Assembly (NCBI GenBank): GCA_030434875.1
Contig: JAUISW010000001.1
Span: forward strand, 2,987,501 to 3,051,500
DNA: 64,000 nucleotides
Direction of reading: 5' to 3'
DNA from: Lachnospiraceae bacterium C1.1
GTDB lineage: Bacteria; Bacillota; Clostridia; Lachnospirales; Lachnospiraceae
Position numbers and translations under genes: made by a program. The stretch's first letter is position 1, and each line of letters opens with the position of its first letter. This document shows positions 1,956 to 12,177 of this stretch, piece after piece. Under the pieces are notes generated by a model. The model worked only from the letters and a program-made list of their open reading frames with translations. It was not told the origin of the DNA and did not search any database.

Positions 1956-3143
1956 TTATGAAATTTTATTTAAGGGCTGCAGAGCTCTTGAAAGTATACC
2001 GTTCACCGATGCTATCAGGGTTCCGTAATTTGTAAACGGAACCTCTTCTGATACTGCGCGTTTCATTCTGCTCTGCATTTCCTTTTCATTAAGCATGCAG
2101 CCGCCGCAGTGAACTATGAGTGCGTACTGCTTCAGATCCTTCGGAAAAGTTCCTCCGGATGAAGTTTCGAAAATAAAATCCTTTCCGGTAAATTCCCGTA
2201 TCCATCCGGGAAGCTTTACAGTGCCTATATCTTTGCACTGTCTTTTGTGGGTACAGCCCTCTGATATAAGTATCTTTTCTCTGCCTTTTAAGCTCTTGAG
2301 ACTTTCTATCCCCTTTATCTGAGTATCAAGTGTTCCCTTGTATCTTGCCATCAAAATAGAGAATGATGTCAGTGCAACGCTCTCGGGAACTATTTTCATG
2401 ACCATTCCGAACGCCTGTGAATCTGTGATCACAAGCTTCGGAGCTTCCGGCATACTTTTTAGTGTTTCCTCAAGCTCTGTTTCTTTGACGGCGATCGATA
2501 CCGCACCTGCCTCTAAAAGATCCCTTATGACCATCTGCTGCGGAAGTATAAGTCGTCCCTTTGGTGCAGATTCATCTATCGGTATGACAAGTATTACCTT
2601 ATCGCCTTTTTTTACGAGATCGGATACCAGTGGACGGCTGTTTCCGGCCTCTTTTTTCATTTGAGAGAGTCTGTTCTTGAACTCATCTATTCCCTCAAGC
2701 GTTTTAGAGCTTACGCATAAAGCATTCTCTGCCTTAAGTTCTGCCTCTGTAAGGTCATTCTTGTTATAAACCTTCATATAAGGAATCTTTTTTTCCTTAA
2801 AGATTTCCTCAAGCTCTGCCTCACAATTGCCGCTGCCGCGGCTGCTGTCTATTACAAGTACTGCAATGTCGGTCTTTTCCAATACTTCATTGGTTTTCTC
2901 GACTCTGAGTTTTCCAAGCTCTCCCTCATCATCAAAACCCGGTGTATCTATAATAACCACAGGTCCCAACGGAAGTATCTCCATTGTCTTTTTTACAGGA
3001 TCGGTGGTTGTCCCTGCCGTATCCGATACGACAGACATATCCTGTCCCGTAAGTGCATTTACCAGGCTTGATTTACCTGCATTTCTCCTGCCGAAGAAGG
3101 CTATATGAAGCCTCTCCGATGCCGGTGTATCATTTAAACCCAT
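1956..3143 (-). CDS. hydF: [FeFe]-hydrogenase maturation GTPase HydF
   Basis: HydF is the GTPase and scaffold on which the 2Fe subcluster of [FeFe] hydrogenases is assembled before transfer to the apo-enzyme. All hallmarks are visible in 395 residues: P-loop GRRNAGKSS (18-26), DTPG (66-69), NKND (127-130), and the C-terminal iron-sulfur ligands CxH (C297, H299) and HCxxC (H345, C346, C349). The ATG at 3143 is preferred over a longer frame because AGGAG lies seven bases upstream. It is the last gene of the Hyp/Nif-like operon. HydE and HydG, which normally supply its cargo, are not in this window. A canonical HydF in an operon with HypCDEF is unusual. Identity is sure; its cargo here is unknown. 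Confidence 0.93.
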   Translation of the reverse strand: MGLNDTPASERLHIAFFGRRNAGKSSLVNALTGQDMSVVSDTAGTTTDPVKKTMEILPLGPVVIIDTPGFDDEGELGKLRVEKTNEVLEKTDIAVLVIDSSRGSGNCEAELEEIFKEKKIPYMKVYNKNDLTEAELKAENALCVSSKTLEGIDEFKNRLSQMKKEAGNSRPLVSDLVKKGDKVILVIPIDESAPKGRLILPQQMVIRDLLEAGAVSIAVKETELEETLKSMPEAPKLVITDSQAFGMVMKIVPESVALTSFSILMARYKGTLDTQIKGIESLKSLKGREKILISEGCTHKRQCKDIGTVKLPGWIREFTGKDFIFETSSGGTFPKDLKQYALIVHCGGCMLNEKEMQSRMKRAVSEEVPFTNYGTLIASVNGILSRALQPLNKIS

Positions 3144-3168
3144 TAATTTTCTCCTATTCAGTCTCTGA

Positions 3169-4419
3169 TCATCTCGGGCAAAATTCAAAATTACTGCAAA
3201 GGCCAATAGCCTTTCTTGGAATTATATCGGCAGTATCTTTTTCATTTAAGTATGCATCTTTCATCAGCTCTGTGAGCGCGATAATGCCCTTGTAGCCATA
3301 TAGTCCGCCATTCTCCACGATATTCACGAAATGAGCTGTATTCGTGAACCAGGCAGCCTTCTGTCCTATTGCAAGGATATCGGTCTCTTTGCGTTCTGCA
3401 ACTCTCTGCTCCGGCGCGATCACAGGTCTTATTTCTACCCTTTCGTCTGCCTCTATTTTTTCAGCGATCTCTTTTTCCTCAGACATTACGGAATCCGCAT
3501 AAATATATTTTAAGTTAAAGCCATTATCTAAAAGCATCTCCGCAAGTGAAAAAATCTGCGGACAGGCGCTGTAGTCTATCGCAATGACCTTATCTCCTAT
3601 AAGATCCCGAAGATTCTCAAGCGCATTTTTTGCCTCTTCCTTAAGCTTTCTCGGATCATATGATATTCCCATAAGTTTTGAAAGCTCTGTCATTGAAGCA
3701 TCTATATCGTCCGGATCAAAACTCATGGGCATATAAATATGATCACGTCTGAGTCTTTTTGCATTTCTTCTGACGGCATCTTTACCCGCCGGTAAAGATG
3801 ATATAAAAAGCTCTGTTTCTCCAAGATTTAGAAATTCGTCATAATCCCTGCAATCCGAAAGCTGTTTTAACTCCCAGCCGTTTTCAGTTAAAAGAGCCGC
3901 AATATCGCTGTTTTCCGATGTCATTTTCATGTCAATACCAAGTACTGCGGCAGTCTTTTTTCTGACCGGAAGCTCTCTGATATTTGCAAACATGGCATAC
4001 CTAAGCTTCATTTCCGGCGAAGGACCGTTTTTCTGCATTATCGGATCCATATAGCAACGACAGAAATCTATGTCGGGAAAGCGCCTTTCAAGCTCTTTGT
4101 AGACTCTTCCCAGATCCGTTCCGAGAAAGGCATGCGTACAGACTGTAAAAAGCATTACCGTTCTTGGTCTTTTCTCAAGACCCTCGATTACTTCAGCGGT
4201 TCCCTCGATGGTTACGGTTTCGAGATTGTCCTTAAAAAGATCCTCTTCATCAAATGTTACGCAGCTGAAGCGGTCTTCCGCTCCCATTTCGAGAGCCGTC
4301 ATGACTACACCTCTCATGCAGTTTATAGCGCAGACATAAATCTGATGGCTCTCGGGAACCTGCATTCCTATATGGACTATATTCCATGTGCCGTGTGCCG
4401 GCGGATTGTATTCTAACAT
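3169..4419 (-). CDS. Nitrogenase component 1-like protein (NifD/NifE-like), 416 aa
   Basis: Resembles the component-1 oxidoreductase family (NifD/K/E/N, BchN/B, CfbD), which holds a metallocluster and receives electrons from a NifH-type protein. Cysteines at family-typical places are visible: VCAINC (C30, C34), VCTHAFLGTD (C94), and FCRC (C120, C122); the C-terminus ends CSNFEFCPR. It has about 416 residues, close to one component-1 subunit. It overlaps the end of hypE by a few bases and is followed by hydF, so translation is probably coupled. It shares the layout of the N-terminal half of the larger component-1-like protein in the same operon. Whether it carries a P-cluster-like centre or acts as a NifEN-like scaffold cannot be read from sequence. 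The family is likely; the substrate is unknown. Confidence 0.8.
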   Translation of the reverse strand: MLEYNPPAHGTWNIVHIGMQVPESHQIYVCAINCMRGVVMTALEMGAEDRFSCVTFDEEDLFKDNLETVTIEGTAEVIEGLEKRPRTVMLFTVCTHAFLGTDLGRVYKELERRFPDIDFCRCYMDPIMQKNGPSPEMKLRYAMFANIRELPVRKKTAAVLGIDMKMTSENSDIAALLTENGWELKQLSDCRDYDEFLNLGETELFISSLPAGKDAVRRNAKRLRRDHIYMPMSFDPDDIDASMTELSKLMGISYDPRKLKEEAKNALENLRDLIGDKVIAIDYSACPQIFSLAEMLLDNGFNLKYIYADSVMSEEKEIAEKIEADERVEIRPVIAPEQRVAERKETDILAIGQKAAWFTNTAHFVNIVENGGLYGYKGIIALTELMKDAYLNEKDTADIIPRKAIGLCSNFEFCPR

Positions 4420-11415: not shown

Positions 11416-11424
11416 ATAATTCCC

Positions 11425-12177
11425 TTAATCTGTCTCTAAAAGCTTTTTCGCAAGTCTCATAAATTCCTGCGCTGCTGCCGAGTCAGGTCTGCCTTCTATA
11501 ACGGTCTTGCCCTCATCCTCGCAGCTTATAATATCATCGCTTCTTGGAATCTCTCCTACGATCTCTATTCCTCTTTCATCTGCAAACGCCGAAACTTTTT
11601 CTTTTTCATTCTCGACATTTCTGTGGTTTAAGACTATTCCGCGTACGCTTGCATAGCCTCTGTCCTCAAAGTTTTTTACCGCTTCGTTTATGTTTGAGGC
11701 TGCATAGAGCGCCATTTTTTCTCCGGAAGTAACTATAAGTACTTTTTCTGCATATCCTTCTCTTATAGGTGCTGCAAAGCCTCCACAGACTACATCTCCC
11801 AAAACGTCATAAAGGACCACATCAGGCTCTTCGTTTTCAAAAAGCTGCAGACTGTCAAGCATCTGGAATGTCGTTATGATACCTCTTCCGGCACATCCGA
11901 GTCCGGGTGTAGGTCCGCCTGTCTCTATACACATGACTCCACCATATCCTGTTTTCATTATTTCATGATAATCCTCAGGAAGCGCATCATTCTCTCTCAT
12001 ATAATTCATAACAGATGAAACAGCTTCTCCTTTAAGCAGATTCATTGTAGAATCAGCCTTTGGATCACAACCTATCTGTATAACTTTTTTTCCCATCTTG
12101 GCAAATGCTGCTGCAAGATTTGCAGTAACTGTGGACTTTCCTATTCCACCCTTTCCATATATCGCAAGTTTAAGCAT
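11425..12177 (-). CDS. NifH-like ATP-dependent iron-sulfur reductase
   Basis: Homologue of nitrogenase Fe protein and its relatives BchL, BchX and CfbC: a homodimer that bridges one [4Fe-4S] cluster and passes electrons to a component-1 partner on ATP hydrolysis. Visible are the P-loop GKGGIGKST (8-16), DPKADST, the cluster ligands C95 in GLGCAGRG and C131 in GDVVCGGFA, and the Arg of CAGRG. The 250 residues are shorter than nitrogenase NifH (about 290), as in several non-nitrogenase members. It opens the eight-gene operon, behind AGGAG. The tandem structured repeat lies directly upstream and is probably in its leader or promoter region. nifB is not seen in the window, so nitrogen fixation is not supported. 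Confidence 0.9.
   Translation of the reverse strand: MLKLAIYGKGGIGKSTVTANLAAAFAKMGKKVIQIGCDPKADSTMNLLKGEAVSSVMNYMRENDALPEDYHEIMKTGYGGVMCIETGGPTPGLGCAGRGIITTFQMLDSLQLFENEEPDVVLYDVLGDVVCGGFAAPIREGYAEKVLIVTSGEKMALYAASNINEAVKNFEDRGYASVRGIVLNHRNVENEKEKVSAFADERGIEIVGEIPRSDDIISCEDEGKTVIEGRPDSAAAQEFMRLAKKLLETD

Follow-up and report, generated by a model that had tools for sequence, protein, structure and literature searches.

The accepted source of the carbon monoxide (CO) and cyanide (CN) ligands of the H-cluster of [FeFe]-hydrogenases is HydG, and the substrate of HydE in the same pathway is Fe(CO)2(CN). For [NiFe]-hydrogenases, an Fe(CN)2(CO) unit is carried by HypCD, and HypB serves for nickel insertion. 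Here we describe an eight-gene operon of Lachnospiraceae bacterium C1.1, located in a window of 64,000 nucleotides (the whole stretch of DNA that was analysed), in which genes for nitrogenase-like proteins stand together with those for HypCDEF and HydF. We judge it quite likely that this operon is a branch of [FeFe]-hydrogenase maturation that replaces HydG. The gene set is conserved, the residues of the Hyp proteins, HydE and HydF are intact, HydG is nearly absent from the genomes concerned, and HydE, HydF and an [FeFe]-hydrogenase homologue are nearly always present.

NifHEN-like genes beside "hydrogenase maturation proteins" were mentioned in one sentence on Coprococcus catus by Dos Santos et al. 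(2012, PMC3464626), who suggested a role in the assembly of an active-site metallocluster; these genes probably represent the same cluster. An earlier sequence-only reading of the window had known of no described pathway that combines the three modules. The association between NifHEN-like genes and hydrogenase maturation had thus already been noted, whereas HydE and HydF, HypCDEF and the absence of HydG are not named in the relevant passages. The relevant passages of PMC9431212 list five acetogens that have HydE and HydF yet lack a typical hydG (Clostridium ljungdahlii, Clostridium ragsdalei, Clostridium coskatii, Clostridium carboxidivorans and strain AWRP), with HypCDEF in eight of eight acetogens and HypAB in three of eight; the authors had no straightforward explanation for the missing hydG there, and gave as scenarios an atypical radical S-adenosylmethionine (SAM) candidate or free CO/CN. 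The sole active hydrogenase of C. ljungdahlii is described in a passage of PMC6203783 as an orthologue of the [FeFe] enzyme Hyt. No fuller earlier description of the operon was found in the open-licence literature beyond PMC3464626 and PMC9431212.

An operon of nitrogenase-like, Hyp and Hyd genes

The eight genes are close-set on the minus strand (window 12177-1956) and run, 5' to 3', from the NifH-like gene through the NifE/NifN-like fusion, HypF, HypC, HypD, HypE and the second component-1-like gene to HydF:

11425..12177, minus strand: NifH-like reductase (NifH-a) driven by adenosine triphosphate (ATP), 250 amino acids; PF00142 303 bits, Cys95 and Cys131 invariant
9085..11415, minus strand: fused NifE-like and NifN-like protein (D1K1), 776 amino acids; PF00148 148 bits in two stretches
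6740..9076, minus strand: HypF carbamoyltransferase; TIGR00143 756 bits, above cut-off
6482..6712, minus strand: HypC; TIGR00074 63 bits, above cut-off
5439..6485, minus strand: HypD; TIGR00075 385 bits, above cut-off
4413..5417, minus strand: HypE with C-terminus PRIC; TIGR02124 412 bits, above cut-off
3169..4419, minus strand: second NifE/BchN-like component-1 subunit (D2), 416 amino acids; PF00148 46 bits
1956..3143, minus strand: HydF, H-cluster maturation GTPase/scaffold; TIGR03918 547 bits against a cut-off of 325.55

The sequence-only reading had proposed this eight-gene operon, and the presence of all genes on one strand with the family matches above bears it out. Its claim of overlapping genes holds for the short overlaps of HypC with HypD and of HypE with D2, but not for HydF. 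The start codon of the latter is most likely the ATG at 3143, closely preceded by AGGAG, rather than the TTG at 3206, and the gene therefore does not overlap with the preceding D2 gene.

A protein search with the fused D1K1 returned 5268 proteins at E <= 1e-3; the matches listed (120) were at least 45% identical, and one was named Mediterraneibacter faecis. An alignment scan for D1K1 yielded 330 genome loci, 80 of which were retrieved and analysed, while a single-protein pattern scan of genome contigs found nothing. Counting hits of at least 60 bits (HypC excepted) within flanks of at most 10 kilobases, where many contigs end inside the cluster, four hyp genes were found beside a component-1 gene in 61 of the 80 loci, joined also by the second component-1 gene in 50, also by HydF in 29 and also by HydE in 16. 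Matched genes lay on one strand in all 80 loci, with HydE left aside (inverted in L094). Because the component-1 gene is accompanied by the full hyp quartet in 61 of 80 related loci from other genomes, the grouping is not due to chance and the three modules form one conserved unit; the sequence-only reading would have been refuted had the eight genes rarely occurred together elsewhere, and this search did not refute it. The fullest form of the cluster, with varying order, comprises NifH-a, D1, K1, HypF, HypC, HypD, HypE, NifH-b, D2, K2, HydF and HydE. HydG was found in none of the 80 locus stretches, where every match to the HydG model was a HydE gene at no more than 70 bits. At L153:9258-21689, and similarly in L152, a shortened NifE/N-like gene (570 amino acids) is followed by a sugar-transporter-like set, named from sequence, and then by the start of HypF, which is either an unusual gene order or an error in the assembly.

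Distribution of HydG and of the operon

Gene content was assessed in 56 operon genomes, consisting of six of the genus and 50 further genomes from several phyla (Lachnospiraceae, Oscillospiraceae, Clostridium, Atopobiaceae/Olsenella, Schwartzia, Mitsuokella and Desulfovibrionaceae). The 50, a selection that favoured longer contigs and isolates, were screened for HydG, HydF, PF02906, HydE and HypB. Loci L077-L080 belong to the genus genomes G046, G042, G036 and G038 and were counted there; 50 of the other 76 loci were searched and 26 left out. D1 and four hyp genes were present in the fetched stretch for 45 of the 50, at least one hyp gene being absent from L081, L084, L133, L134 and L141.

HydG scored above the cut-off in a single operon genome of the 56 (0/6 in the genus, 1/50 in the others), while HydE did so in 52 (6/6 and 46/50) and HydF likewise in 52 (5/6 and 47/50); the [FeFe]-hydrogenase homologue, PF02906, was found in 55 (6/6 and 49/50, of which 41/50 at 278 bits or more). 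Since HydE, HydF and the hydrogenase homologue are kept in nearly all operon genomes and HydG in only one, what these genomes suggest is the known H-cluster, made with a substitute for HydG. Gaps in the assemblies are not the reason for its absence, as HydE and HydF were found in more than 90% of the operon genomes. The C1.1 genome itself (G000) is 99.99% complete in three contigs, and the sole match of the HydG model to it was its own HydE, at 66 bits.

Among 99 relatives not selected for the operon, HydG was above the cut-off in 44, HydE in 53 and HydF in 50, and the operon was present in six (G000, G036, G037, G038, G042 and G046; G037, whose contig stops short of D1K1, was included because of its HypD-HypE-D2-HydF next to rplM). 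With genomes, though related, treated as independent, the operon was found in 6/10 of the HydE-bearing relatives without HydG compared to 0/43 of those with it (53 in total; Fisher P 9e-6), and within the genus in 6/8 HydE genomes without HydG compared to 0/19 with it (P 9e-5). Component-1 matches occurred in 19 of the 99 relatives, six of which are the operon genomes. Two more (G050, G085) hold NifH-D-K sets beside an iron-transport-like ATP-binding cassette transporter, named from sequence, with no hyp genes in the stretch, and were not counted; nor were the matches of the other 11, at 66 bits or less, counted as the operon.

Quick trees, from which HydF rows below 370 amino acids, HydE rows below 300 or above 480 amino acids and rows below 250 bits were left out, required six changes of the operon/HydG label for HydF and seven for HydE, with well-supported (starred) branches forcing at least 4-5 and at least 3-4 changes, respectively. 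Because several of these changes are forced by well-supported branches, the swap between operon and HydG looks recurrent.

Following the scenarios of PMC9431212, a ThiH-like radical SAM protein of divergent sequence, or else scavenged CO and cyanide, could stand in for HydG, the operon being unrelated. ThiH-like proteins were found in 13 of the 50 further operon genomes, weak activation by HydE and HydF alone is cited in a passage of that paper, and two relatives (G057 and G076) carry HydE and HydF in the absence of both HydG and the operon. However, no ThiH-like protein matched the HydG model at 170 bits or above in the other 37 of the 50 or in any of the six genus genomes, C1.1 included, and this explanation, which we hold to be very unlikely, leaves the mutual exclusion of operon and HydG unaccounted for.

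Sequence features of the proteins and surroundings of the operon

The catalytic residues of the Hyp proteins were conserved throughout. The zinc-finger cysteines of HypF were present in 98-100% and its HHxxH motif in 100% of 62 rows, Cys2 and His45 of HypC were invariant in 67 rows, as were Cys26, Cys54, Cys57, Cys315, Cys322, Cys331 and Cys339 of HypD in 64 rows, and the C-terminal Cys334 of HypE was found in 98% of 63 rows. Similarly, C318, H320, H366, C367 and C370 of HydF (CxH and HCxxC) were retained in at least 97% of 30 rows, and C95 and C131 of the NifH-like protein in 100% of 77 rows. The key residues picked out by the sequence-only reading (HypE PRIC, HydF CxH and HCxxC, NifH-like C95 and C131) are thus present and conserved across the fetched family.

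HypB exceeded the cut-off in 22 of the 56 operon genomes, including that of C1.1, and was under it or absent in 34, among them G042 (100% complete) and G038 (98% complete). As HypB reached the cut-off in just 22 of 56, HypCDEF are likely to be used independently of nickel. A single HypD, that of the operon, was found in each of G036, G037, G038, G042 and G046. The C1.1 genome holds a second HypC/HypD/HypE set beside a [NiFe]/complex-I-like locus (L034), and the operon HypC, HypD and HypE scored 78, 452 and 411 bits against those of a Desulfovibrionaceae operon, compared to 33, 302 and 244 bits against the second set of its own genome. The operon HypCDEF might nevertheless mature a [NiFe]-hydrogenase, with the nitrogenase-like and HydF genes as passengers or an add-on, given that HypCDEF is [NiFe] machinery and that C1.1 has both the L034 locus and HypB. 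Yet a separate set of HypC, HypD and HypE belongs to this locus, and HypB was not above the cut-off in 34 of the 56 operon genomes (the role was judged by HypB only, with no search for [NiFe]-hydrogenase genes), which makes such a role highly improbable.

HydE of C1.1 (TIGR03956 578 bits) is encoded elsewhere in the genome, directly after the NifN-like K2 (G000:C1:307425-309661, L033; K2 at L033:9425-10618). The [FeFe]-hydrogenase (L183) keeps the H-cluster motifs TSCCPGW, MPCVAKKRE and EVMACPGGCAGGG, and all three are also present in G037, G042, G046 and G105; hydrogenase motifs were examined in a minority of the 50 further genomes, and PF02906 there denotes a family match. Both ends of the main contig G000:C1 (start L183, end L182) bear the same hydrogenase region, so that the contig is probably a circle whose two ends overlap. 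This other half of the system, K2 with HydE and the hydrogenase at the contig ends, lies outside the window and was therefore invisible to the earlier reading.

Comparison of operon-class and HydG-class rows at a 75% threshold revealed no differing column in HydE (32 versus 19 rows; 61 columns common) and one in HydF (41 versus 18 rows), and judged by these alignments the HydE and HydF of operon genomes are of the ordinary type. Gln107, Arg155, Arg159, Thr268/269, Tyr303 and Tyr306 (numbers hand-counted), which line the substrate pocket of T. maritima HydE, were retained in the HydE alignment to 3cix. With no class-specific columns and with the pocket residues retained, the substrate of HydE in operon genomes is probably the same Fe(CO)2(CN) complex.

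The placement of HydE and HydF varied between genomes. One Desulfovibrionaceae contig (L239/L142) holds two [FeFe]-hydrogenase pieces, a small-subunit-like gene (named by us from sequence), HydE, HydF and the whole nif/hyp cluster, and in a Eubacteriales genome (L240) HydE-HydF is divergent from an electron-bifurcating-type hydrogenase set, named from sequence starts. In G036 and G038, HydE comes after HypE, and D2 and HydF do not follow the hyp genes; they do not do so in G042 either, where HydF and HydE lie together on another contig. HydE adjoins a component-1-like gene in G046 and G037. On L177 (G076:C7), in a genome without HydG, HypD and the operon, HydE (9300-10352) adjoins HydF (10362-11543).

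The nitrogenase-like proteins scored below the cut-offs of their described relatives. The best scores of the NifH-like protein were 315 bits to NF033200 (CfbC; cut-off 402) and 310 bits to TIGR01287 (nifH), both under the cut-off, with 206 bits to BchL (cut-off 345), and the component-1 protein reached 48 bits to BchB (cut-off 490). The top NCBIfam match of D1K1 was TIGR01283 (nifE) at 105 bits, against a cut-off of 505, the score of a curated NifE thus not being reached. Cys71 and Cys131 (D1) and Cys488 (K1) were invariant in 57 fused rows and may be the cysteines of an interface Fe-S cluster; only Cys131 of the three appears in the NifE alignment. In that alignment the cysteine of the NifE VCSKA motif, which holds the L/M-cluster precursor, corresponds to Asn in D1. 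The predicted D1K1 model (mean predicted local distance difference test score 79.9; weak at 33-48 and 486-500) matches in its predicted fold the chains of NifEN, dark-operative protochlorophyllide oxidoreductase (DPOR) and nitrogenase. Most Lachnospiraceae loci encode D1K1 as a fusion; in Clostridium and others, D1 and K1 are two separate genes. Cys34 and Cys94 of D2 were invariant in 59 rows, and the likely partner of D2 is K2, found beside HydE elsewhere in the C1.1 genome; D2 and K2 adjoin each other in other genomes. A second NifH type, NifH-b, was found in part of the loci, and NifH-b and D2 are fused into proteins of 727-732 amino acids in seven (L096, L109, L113, L117, L119, L138 and L140).

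These proteins also bear on the suggestion of the sequence-only reading that Hyp and HydF make a new nickel-free Fe-CO-CN cofactor, carried by the NifDK-like proteins as a new reductase. Three component-1-type domains in the window and the occurrence of NifH-b in some of the loci would be in keeping with this, as would the lack of a cluster cysteine at the NifE position of the alignment and the intact Hyp proteins. A separate cofactor would, however, need no loss of HydG, yet HydG is missing in 55 of 56 operon genomes with HydE and HydF kept in 52 each, and the conserved columns of HydE are unchanged. A new cofactor or reductase is hence unlikely, the pattern being that of an H-cluster with HydG replaced; what endures from the suggestion is the conserved unit and the likely nickel-independent use of the Hyp proteins.

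The operon is flanked by truA (12554-13297) and rplM-rpsI (1461-592), and two congeners (L037, L039) show the same truA-operon-rplM placement. The stretch just before the first gene of the operon contains a tandem duplication, and a 20-nucleotide probe from it had no other copy in the window:

12200..12345 and 12346..12491, no strand assigned: two tandem 146-nucleotide copies in the operon leader, 97% identical

An Rfam scan of window positions 1-20000 gave zero matches, and promoter- and terminator-like matches in 1400-12700 were near shuffle level (20 versus 18.8 and 13 versus 10.6, respectively). Farther along the window, 33696-35381 and 39122-40807 encode two close copies, not far apart, of a protein of 561 amino acids, judged from sequence to be of AAA/nuclease type.

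A proposed route and its relation to known systems

In the route that we propose, an Fe-CN-CO unit would be assembled by HypF, HypE and HypCD and then converted by two nitrogenase-like reductases (NifH + NifEN-type) into the Fe(CO)2(CN) synthon that is usually the product of HydG. From this synthon HydE and HydF, which have been retained, would form the 2Fe subcluster and hand it over to the hydrogenase. We infer both that the Fe-CN-CO unit feeds HydE and that the nitrogenase-like complexes act on it. As HypCD carries Fe(CN)2(CO) and the substrate of HydE is Fe(CO)2(CN), the likeliest nitrogenase-like chemistry would be a low-potential, ATP-driven supply of extra CO (e.g. by CO2 reduction) together with the loss of one cyanide. 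A more specific proposal, which we hold to be about as likely as not, is that the operon constitutes a second, HydG-free route to the H-cluster, with the organometallic Fe-CO-CN unit from HypCD as the direct substrate of two-component enzymes of the nitrogenase type.

Several observations weigh against a replacement of HydG by the operon. In Clostridium thailandense (G106, L089/L251), HydG (683 bits) and the nif/hyp cluster occur together. HydG can also be missing without the operon, since G003, G023, G057 and G076 (99% complete) have HydE with neither of them, accompanied by HydF in G057 and G076, and G067 has HydF without HydE, HydG or the operon. Moreover, 18 relatives (G049, G054, G062, G063, G065, G072, G075, G077, G078, G079, G081, G084, G086, G087, G088, G090, G092 and G097; loci L060, L061 and L076 among others) carry PF02906 at 298 bits or more with none of HydE, HydF and HydG above the cut-off and no operon, so that a hydrogenase homologue taken alone proves little; the H-cluster motifs are intact in at least three of them (G077, G086 and G092), and either the homologues of the 18 are not hydrogenases or they mature by a further route. 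Among the operon genomes, HydE was not above the cut-off in G099, G101, G119 (a fragment) and G141, and HydF was not in G036, G099, G101 and G128, the fetched locus itself being cut short in G099 and G101. G141 is also without PF02906, and nine of the 50 further operon genomes have no PF02906 match of 278 bits or more. C1.1 itself has HypB. The stoichiometries of Fe(CN)2CO on HypCD and of Fe(CO)2CN do not fit directly, we know of no biochemistry for the operon, and it is gene association that suggests the nitrogenase-like step. Finally, passages of PMC9431212 assign HydG by motif in Clostridium autoethanogenum, Clostridium drakei and Clostridium scatologenes, and report the atypical radical SAM candidate in all acetogens except C. 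autoethanogenum; C. drakei also has D1.

A HydG-replacing route would explain acetogens such as C. ljungdahlii, with an active [FeFe]-hydrogenase and no typical hydG. C. carboxidivorans has the nif/hyp cluster (L088), with HydF at 596 and HydE at 394 bits and a best HydG match of 198 bits, under the cut-off, and a D1 of 91% identity was found in C. ragsdalei; that of C. ljungdahlii itself was not met by name among the matches listed. The best 120 matches to the C. thailandense HydG contained no C. ljungdahlii, C. ragsdalei, C. carboxidivorans, C. drakei or Clostridium luticellarii by name, a weak negative given that names are mostly lacking and that C. thailandense itself does not appear. If the proposed route is true, a much-studied metal site has a second biosynthetic origin and the nitrogenase family a new chemistry, with a nitrogenase-family cofactor factory that serves gut and gas-fermenting bacteria and in which the biosynthetic pathways of the three classic gas-enzyme cofactors meet. 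It would also account for the working [FeFe]-hydrogenases of industrial acetogens, e.g. C. ljungdahlii, that lack a typical hydG, a point left open in the passages of PMC9431212, and part of gut hydrogen metabolism would hang on an unrecognised pathway.

Compared to the described systems, the operon genomes come close to HydEFG maturation of the H-cluster, in that HydE and HydF exceed the equivalog cut-offs, share the same conserved columns and have the same client family. They differ from HydEFG as defined in that HydG is absent in 55 of 56, with HypCDEF and two nitrogenase-like complexes instead. Likewise, the four Hyp proteins resemble the machinery that assembles Fe(CN)2CO for [NiFe]-hydrogenases, being above their cut-offs with intact catalytic residues, but the genomes often have no HypB above the cut-off (34 of 56), the operon set is distinct from the second Hyp set of C1.1, and it is tied to HydE and HydF. 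As for the nitrogenase relatives NifEN, DPOR (BchLNB), CfbCD and the methylthio-alkane reductase MarHDK, the nitrogenase-like proteins of the operon fall below every cut-off tested of the NCBIfam models for such systems. The position of the precursor-holding cysteine in the NifEN scaffold is Asn in the operon protein, the likeness to MarHDK is a fold match of the predicted D1K1 model only, with no MarHDK model among the profile matches, and the genomic partners here are Hyp and Hyd genes.

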